Source: Acidimicrobiales bacterium
Lineage (GTDB): Bacteria > Actinomycetota > Acidimicrobiia > Acidimicrobiales > MedAcidi-G1
Length of the DNA: 64,000 nt
NCBI GenBank assembly: GCA_014237715.1
Contig: JAAZZG010000009.1
Span: 1-64,000, forward strand
Direction of reading: 5' to 3'
The position numbers were made by a program, and so were the translations under genes. Of this stretch, positions 46,628-61,892 are shown piece by piece; position 1 is the first letter of the stretch, and each line of letters opens with the position of its first letter. The notes below the pieces were generated by a model, which was not told the DNA's origin, did not search any database, and saw nothing but the letters and a program-made list of their open reading frames with translations.

Positions 46628-47377
46628 ATGATTCGAGCAGCAGTAGTGGCAGTAGTGGCCTTGATCGCCGCCGGCTGTGGTGGAGGCGGCAGCGAGGCGG
46701 CACGCACGGTGACCCTGCTGGCCGAGGACGCACCGTCGGTGATCGTGGTCTCGACCACCGTGGCGCCCTCCACGACCGTGGCACCCACCACGGCGGCACC
46801 CACGACCGTAGAGATCATCGAGGAGGCCACGTCCACATCCGCAGAGGCCACGGCGTCCGAGACCAGCCTCGAGGTCGAGCCCGAACCGGAGGCGACCACG
46901 ACGACGACTGAGGTGGTCAAGGAGACCATCCCGTTGGCCGAGCAGGATGTTCCCGCCGGGATCAAGATGATGGACTCCCTCGAGGAGTTCAACAGTTGCC
47001 TAGAGGAAGAGGGGACGACATTCATCGGTCGCCCCGATGCCGATCTGGGTCCCGAGGACCCGGTCAACCAGCCGGAGTACATCGAAGCGCTGACCCTGTG
47101 TGCAGCGAGGTCAGGCATCGTGACCGCCATGCAGGAGTTCCAGACGTCGAGGATCGGACGGTCCCCGGATCAGATCCGTGCGGCCAACGAGCAGTTCATC
47201 TACCTGGTGGGCTGCCTGCGAGGAAAGGGCTGGACGGTTAGCGACCCGATGCCCGATGCTGAGGGTTCGCTTGGTCCCAGTGAGGACTTCCAAGGTCCCG
47301 ACGGCGATCTCGACCTCGGCGACATCCGCGGCTGTATCAGTGAGCAAAATCTGGCAGACGGAGGAGATGACCAGTGA
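46628..47377 (+). CDS. Secreted lipoprotein with a four-Cys C-terminal domain (paralog B)
   Basis: The 249-residue protein has a clear lipobox, ALIAAGC near residue 17, then a Thr/Pro/Glu-rich spacer and a domain related to paralog A: FNSCLEEEG, LTLCAARSG, LVGCLRGKGW and IRGCISEQ. Both paralogs also share VVKETIPLAE or VVKETVPLAE before this domain. FxxCLxxxG-type domains occur in other actinobacterial lipoproteins near MacB-like genes, an observation from memory. Its stop overlaps the adaptor GTG (GTGA). Confidence 0.8.
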   Translation: MIRAAVVAVVALIAAGCGGGGSEAARTVTLLAEDAPSVIVVSTTVAPSTTVAPTTAAPTTVEIIEEATSTSAEATASETSLEVEPEPEATTTTTEVVKETIPLAEQDVPAGIKMMDSLEEFNSCLEEEGTTFIGRPDADLGPEDPVNQPEYIEALTLCAARSGIVTAMQEFQTSRIGRSPDQIRAANEQFIYLVGCLRGKGWTVSDPMPDAEGSLGPSEDFQGPDGDLDLGDIRGCISEQNLADGGDDQ

Positions 47378-50229
47378 GGAAGCGCTTGAAGAGCCTGTTT
47401 TCCCTGGCCGTAGCGACGGCCTGTGTGGTGGCCATCGTGATGTGGCAGCCGTGGGCTGACGATGCGACGGTGGTGGATCTTGGGGTCGATCGGGCCATCG
47501 CCGAGTCGGTGTCGGTCCGGACGTTGACTGACGAGATCACTATCCGGGGCGAGCTGCGTCGCGACGAACTCCAGGTGGTGACCGCCGCGGTGGACGGCAA
47601 GGTTGGACACGTGTCCGTGGAAGACGGGGACACCGTCAAGGCCGGTGATGCCCTGCTGACCATCGACGGCCGCGAGGTCGTCGCCGTGCTGGGCGATTTC
47701 GCGTTCTACCGCCAGTTGGACGTGGGATCCGAAGGTCCAGACGTCCGACAGTTGGAGGACGTCCTGTCGTCTGCCGGCTACCAGGTGGGAGACGTGGACT
47801 CCCTCTATACCGAAGAGACCCGATCCGGTCTTGCCGCGTGGCAGGCCGATCACGGTTACATCGGTGCGGCCCCCGAGGCCGACGAGGTCGTGACCGTCTC
47901 CCTGCAGGGCAATCCTGCGGGATATGTGGTCGGTCCGGTCAACGCCGTTTCAGTTCGCATCGGACCGGCGGTCGCCACCGCCGGTGAACTGCGCGAGAGC
48001 CAGTCGGCAGCAGTGATGAGCACCGTGGCAGCCGTTGTAGATGCGGCGGCCGTGGCCGACACGCCGGTTCCCACTTTGAGCCTGACCTCCGCGGCCGTGG
48101 TCGTCCAAGAGGGGCGACCCGTGGTGGTGACCATCTCCGCCGACGTGGCGCCGGTGGCCGACCTGGAGATACCGATCACCATCTCCGGCGACGTCATGGT
48201 CGGCGACGACTACGTGGATCCGGACGACACAATTGTGCTGCCGGCCGGCAGCTTGTCGGTGGTAGTCGAGATTGAGACGCTTCTGGATGACGACCGCGAG
48301 CCTTACGAGGACCTGAAGGTGGCGATCGGGGGCGCGTTCGATTCGCTGGTCAGCGTCGCCTCCCAGACGCTCGTCGTGTTCGACCTTCAGGCCCAGATCG
48401 GCGACACGGAGTCGCGAAGGTCGGAACTGGTGGACGAGATCGCCGAGGCGGTGGCCGATGGTTGGTCTCTCGGTGAGTACGACAACCGTGTCGAGATAGT
48501 TGACCTCGAGAAGCGGAGACTCGAACTGCTGGACGAGATCGCCGAAGCCGAGGCGGACGTGGCGACGGAACAGACCGAGGTAGACGCGCTCGAGACGCTC
48601 TCCAGACTGAAGACCGACGTCGAACAGGAGTTGATGGACAAGGGCATCATCACTATGGCCAAGGCCATCGAATCCGACTACACCCCGGCAGTTGCTGAGG
48701 AGTTGATGGCCCTTGACACTGCGCTTGAGAATGCTGACGACGACCTCGAGGCCGAAGACATCACTGTGTCGGCCTGGAGAAAGGCCTTCAACGCTTACTA
48801 CGACGCGCTGGAGGCCGCTGGGGAGGAGTCGGCTGAGCTCGAGGCGGCACGTGACGTCCTCGAGGCCGAGACCGATGCCCTCACCCTCCTCCGGGAGGAG
48901 CAGGATCGGTTGGGCTACCGGATGGAGGATGCCGAGGGCCGGCTCGCCGACGTCCTCGCTGCCGAGGATGACTCGTTGGCCCTTCTTCGCGATGAGCAGC
49001 AGAGGTTGACCTACCTGCTCGAATCCCTTCACGAGGACCTCCGGGTGGCTCAGGCGGCCCGCTACGTGGTGGGCGATGCCGATGAGGTCACGGTCAGCAT
49101 CGACGATCCCGACGTGCCCGACGTGCCGATCCTGGTCCTGCGGGCCGACGGTGAGACGATCGGCGAGGGCGGCTCGGCCACCTTCACCATCGAGACGAGT
49201 GTCGAGCTTGTGGAAGACCTCGACGTGTTCTACGTAGTGGAGGGTTCGGCCACCGCCGATGCCGATTTCAACGCACCGGACGGCGACATCACGATGAAGA
49301 TGGGCCAAGAGCGGATCACGCTGTCCATCCCGGTCCGTAGCGATGACGACGTAGAGGGCGACGAGACCCTGACCGTGCGGCTGAGTGTCGACCCGTCGGC
49401 GAAGTACCGCCTAAGCGACCGTGACCGGGCCACCATCCTGATCGAGTCCTCCGACCTGCCCGAGCTGACGTTGGCCGGTGGTGGTGGCGTGGCTGAGGGC
49501 GACACAGCGGTAGTGACCATCGTGGCCGACCAGCCGCCGGACACCGACACGAGCGTCAACTACCAGGTCTCGGGTAGCGCCCAGGCGGGACAGGACTACG
49601 TAGTGGTCACCGGTACCGCCCTACTGAGGGCTGGAGAACGTTCGGTCACCGTGGAGATCCGAACCATTAACGACGACGTGGTGTTCATGCCCGGAGACAT
49701 GGTGGTGGCTGACTGGCCGGTCCGGGTGGGCACGGTGTCTGTCGTGGAGGGTGACTACGTGCAGCGCGGCACCCCATTGTTCGACCTCACCGAGCCGGTG
49801 TTCACCATCACCCTGTTCGCCTCGCCGACCGACCGCGCCAAGCTGGCCGAGGGTCAGTCGGTGACGGTCAACCTCGACGCCGGCGACCAGGAGTCACCGG
49901 GAACCATTGTGGAACTGGACGACAACGCCACGGTGAGTGGAAGCAGTGAGACCTACGAGGGCGTTGTGGAGGCCGTCGAGGACCTCGTCGGCGTGGACGG
50001 CGCCGTGGTGACCATCGATGTGGTCGTCGAGGAGTCCCTGAATGCAGTGGTTGTTCCCATTGCCGCCGTGCTGTCGGACGGCGGCCAGCAGACAGTCCGG
50101 GTGGTGACTCCCGCTGGGGTCATCGAACGTCGGCCCATCGAGACCGGGATGTTGGATGGCGCCTACGTCGAGGTGGTGAGCGGCGTGGTGGCCGGAGAGT
50201 ACGTCATCCTGGAGATCGACCGCTCGTGA
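47374..50229 (+). CDS. Large HlyD/MacA-like adaptor with peptidoglycan-binding and Calx-beta-like domains
   Basis: The 951-residue protein has a membrane helix at residues 8-26, then a biotinyl-lipoyl half (VDGKVGHVSVEDGDTVKAGD, about 73-92). A peptidoglycan-binding-like domain follows (GSEGPDVRQLEDVLSSAGY, about 118-160), then a first Calx-beta-like module (about 230-335) and a long coiled coil (about 340-565). Two more Calx-beta-like modules (about 575-770, each with acidic turns such as DDDVEGDETLTV) precede the second lipoyl half, beta-barrel and membrane-proximal end (about 770-951). A GGAGG site precedes the GTG. The Calx-beta inserts make it far larger than usual MacA adaptors. Confidence 0.85.
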   Translation: MRKRLKSLFSLAVATACVVAIVMWQPWADDATVVDLGVDRAIAESVSVRTLTDEITIRGELRRDELQVVTAAVDGKVGHVSVEDGDTVKAGDALLTIDGREVVAVLGDFAFYRQLDVGSEGPDVRQLEDVLSSAGYQVGDVDSLYTEETRSGLAAWQADHGYIGAAPEADEVVTVSLQGNPAGYVVGPVNAVSVRIGPAVATAGELRESQSAAVMSTVAAVVDAAAVADTPVPTLSLTSAAVVVQEGRPVVVTISADVAPVADLEIPITISGDVMVGDDYVDPDDTIVLPAGSLSVVVEIETLLDDDREPYEDLKVAIGGAFDSLVSVASQTLVVFDLQAQIGDTESRRSELVDEIAEAVADGWSLGEYDNRVEIVDLEKRRLELLDEIAEAEADVATEQTEVDALETLSRLKTDVEQELMDKGIITMAKAIESDYTPAVAEELMALDTALENADDDLEAEDITVSAWRKAFNAYYDALEAAGEESAELEAARDVLEAETDALTLLREEQDRLGYRMEDAEGRLADVLAAEDDSLALLRDEQQRLTYLLESLHEDLRVAQAARYVVGDADEVTVSIDDPDVPDVPILVLRADGETIGEGGSATFTIETSVELVEDLDVFYVVEGSATADADFNAPDGDITMKMGQERITLSIPVRSDDDVEGDETLTVRLSVDPSAKYRLSDRDRATILIESSDLPELTLAGGGGVAEGDTAVVTIVADQPPDTDTSVNYQVSGSAQAGQDYVVVTGTALLRAGERSVTVEIRTINDDVVFMPGDMVVADWPVRVGTVSVVEGDYVQRGTPLFDLTEPVFTITLFASPTDRAKLAEGQSVTVNLDAGDQESPGTIVELDDNATVSGSSETYEGVVEAVEDLVGVDGAVVTIDVVVEESLNAVVVPIAAVLSDGGQQTVRVVTPAGVIERRPIETGMLDGAYVEVVSGVVAGEYVILEIDRS

Positions 50230-50990
50230 CGGTCGCGTCACCACAGCGGGAGATACCCGTCGGCGAGGTCGTGTTGGCCCTTGAAGGGGTCTCGCGCGTG
50301 TACGGCACCGAGGTGCAGGTGCGGGCGCTCGACGACGTGTCGCTGGACATCCGGGCCGGCGAGTTCCTGTCCATCATCGGGCCGTCGGGATCCGGCAAGT
50401 CGACGATGCTCGGTCTCCTAGGGGTGCTGGACCTGCCGACTGATGGGGCCATCCGAGTACGAGGAACTGACGTGACCCGTCTGGCCGACGCTGAGCGGTC
50501 CCGACTTCGGGGTGAGGCCATCGGCTTCGTGTTCCAGCAGTTCCATCTGATTCCACATCTGACGGCGCTGGGAAACGTCGAGACGGCGCTGCTCTACCGG
50601 GGATTGACCCCTCGTGAGCGGCGGTCGCGGGCTATGTCGGCCCTTGAACAGGTCGGCCTTGGTGAGCGCCACGACCACCGCCCAGTGCAGATGTCGGGCG
50701 GCGAGCAGCAGCGGGTGGCCATTGCCCGGGCCATCTCGACGGATCCCGGGGTTGTGCTGGCCGATGAGCCGACCGGGGCACTCGACAGTCGCAATGCCGA
50801 GAACGTGATGCAGATCTTTGCGGACCTGCAGTCGCCCGAACGAGCCATCTGCATTGTCACCCATGACATGGACGTGGCGGATGCGACTCGGCGCAGGATC
50901 TCCATGTTGGATGGGAAGATCGTGGCCGACGAGATGCTCGGTGGCCCATCTGGTGGCCTAGCTGAGACAGGGGCGGGGGCCGGATCTTGA
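50226..50990 (+). CDS. ABC transporter ATPase, MacB/LolD type
   Basis: The 254-residue ATPase has Walker A GPSGSGKST near residue 50, Q-loop in FVFQQFHLIPHLTALGN, signature MSGGEQQRVAIARAI and Walker B VVLADEPTGALDS. It powers the partner permease. The GTG overlaps the adaptor stop by 4 bases, and the stop overlaps the permease TTG, so adaptor, ATPase and permease are made together. Confidence 0.95.
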   Translation: MTVASPQREIPVGEVVLALEGVSRVYGTEVQVRALDDVSLDIRAGEFLSIIGPSGSGKSTMLGLLGVLDLPTDGAIRVRGTDVTRLADAERSRLRGEAIGFVFQQFHLIPHLTALGNVETALLYRGLTPRERRSRAMSALEQVGLGERHDHRPVQMSGGEQQRVAIARAISTDPGVVLADEPTGALDSRNAENVMQIFADLQSPERAICIVTHDMDVADATRRRISMLDGKIVADEMLGGPSGGLAETGAGAGS

Positions 50991-52174
50991 GGCGCTTCCG
51001 GGAACTGGTCGGCGTGGCCACCGCCGGGTTGACGGCCCGCAAGATCCGGACGTTACTCATCATGCTCGGCCCGATCCTGGGCGTGTCGGCCATCGTTGCC
51101 GCCATCGGCATCAACGAGAGTTCCAAGGGTCACCTCAAGGCCAAGCTCCAGGAGCTGGGTACCGACCTGATCGTGGTGAATGCCGCGGCAGGGTTCGGAT
51201 TCGGCCAGGATCCGGTCATCGAGGCTGCCGCCGTGGCCCGTGTCGGACGACTGCCCGACGTGGTGGCGGTGACCGGCACCCGTCAGCTGTCTGACATCGT
51301 GACCGTGCCGTTTTCTGGAGCGGAGGACTACTACCGGGCCTTCCCCGTCCCGGTGATAGCCACGGGCCCCGAGCTGCCCGACACTCTGGAGGTGCCGATG
51401 ATCTCGGGACGGTTCCTGAACGCCTTCGACAAGGAGTCCAGCGCCCGGGTGGCCGTCATCGGGCGGGATCTGGCCGACGAGTACGGCTATCTGGCGGGGG
51501 AGTCGCGCACCATTGAGCTGAACGGCTTGGAGTACGGCGTGGTCGGGGTTCTGGACTGGGTCCTATTGGAACCGTCGATGGATTCGGCGGTGTTCGTGAC
51601 GTTCGCGGCGGCGGTCGCCGACTGGGATCTGGACGATCCCGATCCGAGTCGTCTGTACGTCCGGGCTCCCACCAACACCGCGATGGTGGCCAAGGAGATC
51701 CCCATCGTGGTCAGCCTCGGCGGGCCGGACGGGGCCAATGCCTCGGTGCCCACGGATCTGCTGGACGCTCAGTCGCAGGTTGACGAGAGCCTCAACAACC
51801 TGACCAAGATGATGGGTGGGCTGGCCCTCATCGTGGGTGGTGTGGGCATCGCCAATGTGATGTCCATCTCGGTGATCCAGCGATCTTCGGAGATCGGGAT
51901 CCGGCGGGCCCTGGGACACAGTCGGGGGACCATCGCCGTCCAGTTTTTGTTCGAGGCCCTCGTAGTGGGGGTGTTCGGGGGAATCCTCGGGGCGCTGGTA
52001 GGTGCCGGTGTGGTCTGGGGTGTGGCGGCCCAAAGGGGCTACACCATGGTGCTGAGCGTGGCCGGACTCGCCGGGTGGGCACTGGTCTCGGTCGGCGTTG
52101 CCGTGGTGGCGGGCCTCTATCCGTCGTCCAAGGCAGCCCGTCTGGAGCCGTTGGAGACCCTCCGTCTCGGCTGA
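50987..52174 (+). CDS. FtsX-like permease, MacB type
   Basis: The 395-residue protein has an N-terminal transmembrane helix (about 17-37), a large extracytoplasmic domain (about 45-265) and three C-terminal helices. IGIRRALGHSRGTIAVQFLFEALVVG (in pieces) and PSSKAARLEPLETLRLG are FtsX/MacB signatures. TTG start, overlapping the ATPase stop (TTGA). MacB-type permeases drive mechanotransmission to an adaptor rather than carry cargo across the membrane. Confidence 0.92.
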   Translation: MRRFRELVGVATAGLTARKIRTLLIMLGPILGVSAIVAAIGINESSKGHLKAKLQELGTDLIVVNAAAGFGFGQDPVIEAAAVARVGRLPDVVAVTGTRQLSDIVTVPFSGAEDYYRAFPVPVIATGPELPDTLEVPMISGRFLNAFDKESSARVAVIGRDLADEYGYLAGESRTIELNGLEYGVVGVLDWVLLEPSMDSAVFVTFAAAVADWDLDDPDPSRLYVRAPTNTAMVAKEIPIVVSLGGPDGANASVPTDLLDAQSQVDESLNNLTKMMGGLALIVGGVGIANVMSISVIQRSSEIGIRRALGHSRGTIAVQFLFEALVVGVFGGILGALVGAGVVWGVAAQRGYTMVLSVAGLAGWALVSVGVAVVAGLYPSSKAARLEPLETLRLG

Positions 52175-54785: not shown

Positions 54786-55157
54786 TCAGGCGTCGAGGAG
54801 TTCGAGGATGCGATCGGCCGGTCGGGCGACTACCGCCCGGTTGCCGAGGATTCCAATGGGTCGCTGCATGAGTTCGGGATGTGCGGAGATCAGGTCGACC
54901 ACGACGGTCGGATCATCCAGCGACGTCGGGTCGACGTTCAACGCATCGAACCCGTCTCCCCGGCGGATCATCTCCGCGGGGCCCAGAGTGACCATGTCCA
55001 GGATTCGCACCAGCAGGTCGTGATCCAGCGGCTCGTCCATGTATTCGATGACGTCGAACTCGACGCCGCGCTCCTCGAGAATTCCGAGGGCGCCCCGGGA
55101 CTTCCCTCAGACCGGGTTGTGGACGAGTAGGAGCCGACGGGGATCGATGGAAGCCAT
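54786..55157 (-). CDS. ArsC-family reductase with predicted selenocysteine at the catalytic position (A)
   Basis: Reading from ATG 55157, the frame gives MASIDPRRLLLVHNPV, then TGA (55107-55109), then GKSRGALGILEERG, and stays open to the stop at 54786. The family motif is HNPxCxKSR, so TGA replaces exactly the nucleophilic Cys (residue 17 of 123). The three arginines used by arsenate reductases are matched by MIRRGDGF, LMQRPIGIL and VARPADRIL. A stem-loop suited as SECIS follows 22 nt after the TGA. TACCGT lies seven bases before the ATG. Standard calling would show only 55040-54786. Possible roles are arsenate reduction or Spx/YfgD-like redox work; the neighbours show no arsenic operon. Confidence 0.82.
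55068..55093 (-). promoter_or_regulatory. SECIS-like stem-loop of ArsC-family gene A
   Basis: On the minus strand GCGC-CCTCG pairs with CGAGG-A-GCGC: nine base pairs with one bulged A. The 7-base apical loop starts with G (55084-55078). The loop begins 22 nt after the TGA, inside the 16-37 nt spacing and G-in-first-two-loop-positions rule commonly used for bacterial SECIS elements. Confidence 0.7.
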
Positions 55158-60938: not shown

Positions 60939-61015
60939 TTCGCTTCCGATCGACTCGTTCCAGACTGAGAACCCGGCCCATCGAGTTTCGGGCCCCGAAC
61001 ATGACAGGAGTTTTC

Positions 61016-61402
61016 GTGGCAGACCTCACCGTCCTGCACAACCCCCATTGACACGCATCCAAGAACGCCTTGGCGGTCGCCGAGGAGTTGGGAGTCGACG
61101 CCCACGTCGTGCTCTACATGAAGGAACCACCGGACGAGGCGTTGCTGCGACGCATCGCCGCCGGGCTGGCCGACCCCGTGGAGGACCTGGTCCGTAAGGA
61201 CTCGCAGTTCAAGAAGCTGGAGTTGGTCGAGGAAGATTACGTGGGCGACGTCGACGCGGTGGTTGAACTACTGGCCCGCCGCAAAGCTCTCCTGCAGCGA
61301 CCCATACTGGTGCGGGGCGATCTGGCAGGCGATGGACCGCTGGTGGCCACCGTGGGACGGCCCAAGGACCGGCTCTACGAGTTCATCGGTGGCGGAAGCT
61401 GA
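61016..61402 (+). CDS. ArsC-family reductase with predicted selenocysteine at the catalytic position (B)
   Basis: From GTG 61016, with AGGAG five bases before it, the frame reads MADLTVLHNPH, then TGA (61049-61051), then HASKNALAVAEELG, to the stop at 61402. In the family this is HNPxCxxSKNAL, so TGA stands in for the nucleophilic Cys (residue 12 of 128). Arg residues in DLVRKDSQFKK, LLQRPILV and VGRPKDRLYEF match the three functional arginines of ArsC. A SECIS-like stem-loop starts its apical loop 23 nt after the TGA. The gene overlaps rraA by 14 bases. A caller starting at ATG 61070 would give a truncated protein with no active site. Confidence 0.84.
61064..61089 (+). promoter_or_regulatory. 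SECIS-like stem-loop of ArsC-family gene B
   Basis: CCTTGGC (61068-61074) pairs with GCCGAGG (61079-61085) around the loop GGTC, with three more base pairs (AAC/GTT) beyond one G.A mismatch. The loop starts GG and lies 23 nt after the TGA. GGUC also begins the apical loop of the E. coli fdhF SECIS (GGUCU). Confidence 0.72.
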
Positions 61403-61892
61403 GCCTGAATTGAAATCCACCGCCGACCTTTGCGACGACCACGGCGATGCGGTTCAGGTGCTGACCGGCGGCTTCGGGTCCTACGGAGGCGTGGACGCCT
61501 TTCGTGGACCGGTGTCGACCCTGGCCGTGTTCGAGGACAACACGTTGGTCCGTGACGCGTTGACCGAGCGGGGTGACGGTCGCGTCCTGGTGGTGGCCGG
61601 TGGCGGCTCGGAGCAGTGCGCGCTGGTCGGCGGCAACCTCGGTGTTCTGGCTGTCGAAAACGGTTGGTCGGGCATCGTGGTGGACGGCTGCGTCCGCGAC
61701 GTCGCCGAACTCCGAGCATCGGCCGTTGGTATCCGGGCCAGGGGCACATGCCCCCGCCGGAGCGTCAAGAGTGGTGCGGGCGATCGTGACGTACCGGTCA
61801 CCGTGGCAGGGGTGGACCTAGTGCCCGGCATGTGGTTGTGGGCCGACGACGACGGCATCGTCGTGGCCAAGACCGATCTGGGGCGGACCTAG
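61389..61892 (+). CDS. rraA: RraA-family protein
   Basis: The 167-residue protein has TADLCDDHGDAVQVL, VLVVAGGGSEQCALVGGNLGVLAVENGWSGIVVDGCVRDVAEL (in parts, with the Arg-Asp metal/substrate pair) and ADDDGIVVAK. The family includes the RNase E regulator RraA and HMG/oxaloacetate aldolases; since RNase E partners vary, either role is possible. It uses GTG at 61389, overlapping ArsC-family gene B by 14 bases, which ties the two translationally. Confidence 0.9.
   Translation: MAEAEPELKSTADLCDDHGDAVQVLTGGFGSYGGVDAFRGPVSTLAVFEDNTLVRDALTERGDGRVLVVAGGGSEQCALVGGNLGVLAVENGWSGIVVDGCVRDVAELRASAVGIRARGTCPRRSVKSGAGDRDVPVTVAGVDLVPGMWLWADDDGIVVAKTDLGRT

Follow-up and report, generated by a model that had tools for sequence, protein, structure and literature searches.

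Does the TGA at positions 61049-61051 end a broken ArsC-family gene, or does it encode the catalytic residue of a selenoprotein, and what would such a protein do? The window, a stretch of 64,000 nucleotides from an Acidimicrobiales bacterium, holds a reading frame running from GTG 61016 to TGA 61400-61402, in which TGA 61049-61051 is the sole internal stop. The predicted protein starts VADLTVLHNPHUHASKNALAVAEELG, with U at the in-frame TGA. The following features were assigned:

61016-61402, + strand: gene A, putative ArsC-family selenoprotein gene, 128 aa with U at residue 12 (PF03960 and TIGR00014 scores, PDB relatives).
61049-61051, + strand: in-frame TGA, predicted selenocysteine (Sec) codon, in register with Cys12 of E. 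coli ArsC (homolog alignment).
61006-61010, + strand: ribosome-binding site AGGAG (sequence; similar purine-rich sites in 12 relatives inspected).

The initial annotation had described an ArsC-family gene with TGA at the nucleophilic Cys position, a GTG start at 61016 behind a good AGGAG site, and retained arginines in VRKDSQ, QRPILV and GRPKDR. All of this held: the three motifs are found in the gene A protein, and among the matches listed Arg60 is present in 150/150 homologs and Arg95 and Arg115 in 149/150 each.

Translation table 11 has TGA as a stop, and in the mechanically made list of ORFs the gene begins at 61070. On that reading the locus would be a decayed or frame-broken arsC, or a sequencing error, with translation starting from the downstream TTG 61070. 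However, a close ortholog of gene A was found in 43 of the 48 genomes of the GTDB family, and every one carries TGA at the site, always at start + 11 codons. The stretch 5' of the TGA could have proved non-conserved; instead, H8, N9 and P10 are kept in 43/43 family orthologs, and differences from gene A upstream of the TGA fall mostly at third codon positions (94, 17 and 182 at positions 1, 2 and 3). Chance or decay is excluded because the TGA is conserved in these orthologs. Decay and sequencing error, which had been judged very unlikely from the outset, and a downstream start were therefore rejected on the family conservation of both the TGA and the part upstream of it. A true stop is also at odds with the TGA/Cys interchange across the class and with a covarying hairpin, inside which TTG 61070 falls (both described below), and we give this explanation almost no credence.

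A class search of 395 genomes gave matches in 140, and the codon at the site was counted over the family loci and the class matches listed, after removal of duplicates (L009, L010, L019) and of loci in which the site is uncovered (L090, L259, L289, L301). Among the matches listed, 194 homologs cover the site: 121 have TGA, 72 have Cys and one has another codon. The first set, again among the matches listed, comprised 116 TGA and 34 Cys homologs (150 in all), and a second set of 47 listed loci comprised 5 TGA, 38 Cys, 1 GGT and 3 without the site covered. The in-frame UGA is aligned with Cys of homologs, as is characteristic of bacterial selenoproteins, and the Sec/Cys interchange anticipated by the initial annotation is found across the class. 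One locus, L281 (G254:C1, ~1671838-1672146), has GGT at the site and lacks HNP, alone among the 194 homologs listed; it is perhaps a frameshift or a misalignment.

The frame is open beyond 61049-61051, which would also be seen if the TGA specified a different amino acid, Trp or Cys, owing to an altered code throughout the genome or to simple readthrough. Against this, the non-TGA homologs among the matches listed have Cys at the site in 72 of 73 cases, and the window genome contains a dedicated Sec system. A general code change was rejected since 30/43 family orthologs of gene A end in TGA, more than in any other stop codon. We consider such a reading of the TGA extremely improbable.

The Sec system was identified in the same genome as gene A (2.33 Mb, 92.6% complete), as the initial annotation's reading would require. 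It includes tRNA-Sec (67.5 bits; called by ARAGORN as SeC, anticodon tca), selA (395.6 bits) adjoining selB (282.5 bits), each above its cut-off, and selD (352 bits; G000:C11, 80011-80934), so that selA, selB, selC (tRNA-Sec) and selD are all present, the machinery expected of a bacterial selenoprotein. The selD of this genome is itself a Sec protein, with a single in-frame TGA within SHGAGUGCK (L049:1225-2532).

Downstream of the gene A TGA, a hairpin was predicted that resembles a bacterial SECIS element:

61068-61085, + strand: predicted bacterial SECIS upper hairpin, 23 nt after the TGA (folding, covariation, bSECIS constraints).

The stem pairs 61068-61074 with 61079-61085 (7 bp) around the apical loop GGUC (61075-61078). 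A 4-nt loop starting with G, 7 bp and 23 nt lie within the bSECIS limits in the available text of PMC13188914, as does the energy of -14.1 kcal/mol (nt 16-42). The 52 nt from the TGA fold at -18.8 kcal/mol, but this plain fold is not striking alone, because z is -1.55 against plain shuffles and 13/200 are as good. When nt 16-42, a stretch picked after the first folds had been inspected, were compared with synonymous-codon shuffles that keep the protein, p was 0.001. The same 7-bp stem and GGUC loop (type 1) are shared by 63 of the 81 distinct A-Sec sequences, and each of the seven pairs is standard in 62 or 63 of these 63. Significance against synonymous shuffles (p<=0.05) was reached in 46/61 type-1 genes and 1/18 A-Cys genes; the other 15/61 type-1 hairpins were not significant by this measure.

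Pair 22/35 shows compensatory change, being U-A in most type-1 sequences and G-C in 11. Those 11 encode Val/Thr (10) or Val/Ala (1), while most others encode Leu/Glu. When the type-1 structure was imposed on all 81 sequences, paired cells, double-change cells and the covariation score (0.221) exceeded all 500 shuffles and all slides. On the same 81, the number of pairs changed on both sides (3) was unremarkable, since 353/500 shuffles reached it; nor did further pair types stand out (reached by 14/500). The A-Cys genes lose key type-1 pairs (22/35 standard in 1/18, 26/31 in 4/18) and retain others (20/37 in 18/18, 23/34 in 16/18); the latter persist because their codons are conserved.

The remaining 18 of the 81 A-Sec rows (e.g. 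L069, L082, L100), from other families of the class, have a second type of SECIS (type 2). Its stem lies nearer the codon, pairing nt 15-20 with nt 26-31 around a CGUGC or CGUGA loop. The six pairs are standard in 18/18 and invariant save one G-U, without compensatory change. On nt 16-42, which cuts the type-2 stem, 0/18 reached p<=0.05 against synonymous shuffles; on nt 13-33, a stretch chosen afterwards, 11/18 did, compared with 2/18 A-Cys and 0/16 B-Cys genes. With the type-2 structure imposed on the full set of 81, 48% of cells were paired, and one slid version did better (63%). In a limited literature search, we found no report of two SECIS types or of paired substitutions in the UxxS ArsC family.

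The evolutionary evidence for Sec at the catalytic site of gene A is unusually clear. The Sec/Cys interchange, the SECIS and the machinery are each backed by sequence evidence, as is the fold described below, and on these grounds we hold it nearly certain that TGA 61049-61051 is a selenocysteine codon.

The initial annotation had further pointed to a second, divergent paralog 6 kb away with the same substitution. This gene was located on the minus strand, reading HNPVUGKSRGAL from 55157 to 54786:

54786-55157, - strand: paralog B, putative second ArsC-family selenoprotein gene, HNPVUGKS (PF03960 36.1 bits; TIGR00014 81.1 bits).
55107-55109, - strand: in-frame TGA of paralog B, predicted Sec codon (homolog alignment).
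55068-55093, - strand: hairpin in paralog B resembling a SECIS (synonymous shuffles, p=0.004; weak consensus fold).

The two proteins are 37% identical, as calculated from a set of 63 of 106 thinned sequences, and paralog B is likewise interpreted as a Sec protein. Both paralogs occur as Sec forms in 19/48 family genomes (G047 included) and in G356 outside the family. The SECIS of paralog B is less uniform than that of gene A, because the RNAalifold consensus is merely -0.64 kcal/mol, the named stem is 84% paired and p<=0.05 against synonymous shuffles was reached in 14/26 Sec genes (0/16 Cys genes).

Sec and Cys forms occur in each paralog group (A and B). At least 5 Sec/Cys changes were required on a quick tree of 150 rows, from which the 47 loci of the second set are absent, and 3 on a careful tree of 70 rows, consisting of 62 group-A rows (near-identical rows and L164 removed) with 8 B rows as outgroup. 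In the 70-row tree, the type-1 SECIS genes form one clade (82/90), which was recovered without the SECIS-bearing columns too (80/92). The type-2 genes sit elsewhere, in a part of the tree also holding Cys rows. The AU test did not reject a single Sec clade for paralog A (p 0.097 on the full alignment, 0.069 once the SECIS columns were removed), and for this reason independent gains of Sec in paralog A stay a suggestion.

The distribution of Sec ArsC was compared with that of the machinery. tRNA-Sec (>=62 bits) was found in 42/48 family genomes and Sec ArsC in 44/48. Of the latter, 40/44 have tRNA-Sec; among the four without it, selB scored above its cut-off in three, and in the fourth, G011 (85% complete), neither was found. 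Outside the family, tRNA-Sec is present in 50/56 Sec-ArsC genomes, the remaining 6 all having selB above cut-off, and in 30/71 Cys-only genomes (Fisher 3.5e-8, uncorrected for kinship), a comparison that is uneven because selB was searched in Sec genomes without tRNA-Sec and, among Cys-only genomes, in G066 alone. For the comparison outside the family, tRNA-Sec status was taken from a set of 245 tRNA-Sec-positive genomes. In G066, which is 99% complete, there was no tRNA-Sec match and no selB above cut-off. Its Cys-ArsC (L076) is the supported sister (98/92) of a Sec gene (L073) from G424, a member of the same genus. Most simply, G066 has reverted to Cys and lost the Sec machinery, probably recently.

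We then consider what the protein might do. Both proteins score above the PF03960 cut-off of 24 (gene A 38.7 bits, paralog B 36.1 bits) and have a U-x-x-S active site, UHAS in A and UGKS in B. The best NCBIfam match for both was TIGR00014, although at 65.3 (A) and 81.1 bits (B) they fall below its equivalog cut-off of 106.05; the Spx model TIGR01617 (cut-off 75.05 bits) gave 39.6 and 33.3 bits. A PDB sequence search with the gene A protein returned arsenate reductases first, with residue 12 on Cys12 of E. coli ArsC. An AlphaFold model (Cys-lettered, 63 rows) had a pLDDT of 92.8, and its fold matches were arsenate reductases at ranks 1-11, then Spx. Among the 150 homologs listed, N9 is as invariant as R60 (150/150), and H8 and the Ser at +3 are each kept in 145/150.

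Gene A resembles the glutaredoxin-coupled ArsC of E. coli (PDB 1jzw, 1i9d) in the register HNPx[C/U], in Arg60 and in R95, the Arg94 equivalent, and in a fold match with a TM-score of 0.70-0.77 by query length. R60 and R95 align to E. coli ArsC, and the GRP arginine R115 aligns to 3rdw; Arg60, Arg94 and Arg107 are the residues that we take to have roles in ArsC catalysis, and R60 mutants are among the PDB titles of the fold matches. Unlike E. coli ArsC, gene A has Sec predicted in place of Cys12, shares 24-25% identity, scores below the TIGR00014 cut-off and occurs in a genome in which acr3 and ArsB were not found. Spx/YffB ArsC-like proteins belong to the same fold superfamily; the Spx motif is CxxC, whereas gene A has UxxS.

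The protein could be a selenoprotein without being an arsenate reductase; it might instead regulate redox processes in the manner of Spx/YffB, or reduce some other substrate. This would fit the scores below the TIGR00014 cut-off and the search for the arsenite exporters acr3 and ArsB, neither of which was found in the 92.6% complete window genome. It would also fit the neighbourhoods of 87 loci outside the family, whose 25 listed gene clusters included nothing recognised, without an HMM scan, as arsenic-related, and the presence of Sec ArsC in 44/48 family genomes, which is unexpected for a resistance gene. Against it stand the three ArsC arginines in 149-150 of the 150 homologs listed and the ranking of ArsC structures above Spx by both sequence and fold. 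We regard a role of this kind as possible, short of probable. An oxyanion-reductase role for gene A is, judged from its sequence, on balance probable, and arsenate is suggested as a substrate by the fold.

Under the Sec reading, gene A would encode an ArsC-family selenoprotein with a thioredoxin fold. Ribosomes would start at GTG 61016 and reach the UGA at 61049, where SelB with Sec-tRNA would be recruited by the hairpin at 61068-61085. Sec would be inserted at residue 12 as the catalytic nucleophile, with the ArsC arginine pocket retained. Together with the three conserved arginines, it would most likely serve as nucleophile in the reduction of an oxyanion (e.g. arsenate) coupled to a thiol or redoxin. 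Apart from residue 12, no position has a widely conserved Cys (at most 27/104 group-A rows in any column), and for this reason a mycothiol- or glutaredoxin-type partner is the presumed electron donor that would recycle the enzyme. An MshC-like protein in the window genome, at 447.2 bits, suggests mycothiol as the donor. Mycothiol is no more than likely there, because the score does not reach the cut-off (485.1) and all 14 control genomes give matches to the model as well. Two adjacent MshC/CysRS-like genes, with 447 and 305 bits to MshC, lie at G000:C27:803-3273 (L252, L253).

Translation would proceed to 61402 and terminate within the start of rraA, whose overlap with gene A had also been noted in the initial annotation and amounts to 14 nt if rraA starts at GTG 61389:

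61389-61892, + strand: rraA-like gene, with a 14-nt overlap at the end of arsC if GTG 61389 is its start (PF03737 138.4 bits).

The overlap may couple gene A with rraA, and translation past the TGA might then help to express rraA, as the initial annotation had proposed. An rraA gene on the same strand, <=60 nt after arsC, was found at 45/152 ArsC-A loci, a count in which some genomes appear twice (two locus ids) and short-flank loci are included. Elsewhere in the window (47374-52174), to judge by the ORF list, an ORF of 951 aa resembles a secretion adaptor and seems to contain Calx-beta-like repeats; the ORFs after it look like a MacB-type ABC ATPase and permease. Among named relatives, the closest genes come from Acidimicrobiales (an order within Acidimicrobiia, Actinomycetota), Acidimicrobiaceae and allied MAGs and single-cell genomes, 'marine actinobacterium' MedAcidi-G1 and G2B among them; the window organism is presumably marine as well.

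Gene A is of a known kind, as publications on UxxS ArsC selenoproteins go back to 2005. The portions of the literature available to us describe a UXXS Sec arsenate reductase from the Sargasso Sea with 14 sequences, 0 of them in genomes sequenced then (PMC1088965), and a GOS 'ArsC 1' (pfam03960, UxxS, 77 sequences; PMC2398784); UxxS ArsC selenoproteins are also listed in the reviews PMC9312934 and PMC13188914, and the evolution of Sec from Cys is established (PMC1794560). By those descriptions, gene A is like the Sargasso and GOS proteins in its Pfam family or COG, its UxxS motif, the alignment of Sec with Cys and a predicted SECIS directly downstream. It differs in that they are metagenome sequences, whereas gene A lies in a genome with the machinery and is one of two paralogs, in a group for which a tree of Sec and Cys forms and two types of SECIS are described here. 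An arsenate reductase-like selenoprotein in the available part of PMC13188914 (NF041106) likewise has Sec in an ArsC-like protein, with UxxC in place of the UxxS of gene A, and NF041106 was absent among the NCBIfam matches of genes A and B. A limited literature search found no title or abstract combining selenocysteine with Acidimicrobi.

For genome annotation, the finding means that a mechanical gene call starts gene A at 61070 and loses its active site, and the same is expected in other genomes of the family. It also raises the question of why one or two Sec-ArsC proteins are kept in a genome in which acr3 and ArsB were not found. We tentatively propose that in Acidimicrobiia ArsC underwent at least three conversions from Cys to Sec (once in B and twice in A, with different SECIS sites), followed by Cys reversion with loss of the machinery; that the stem may dictate Leu/Glu versus Val/Thr; and that the Sec pair may serve housekeeping oxyanion or peroxide chemistry, not arsenic resistance. 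As a natural experiment on how Sec is gained and lost, this family is well suited: it has Sec and Cys orthologs and a probable case of machinery lost upon reversion to Cys, and it also displays two SECIS designs and what looks like coevolution of protein driven by RNA.
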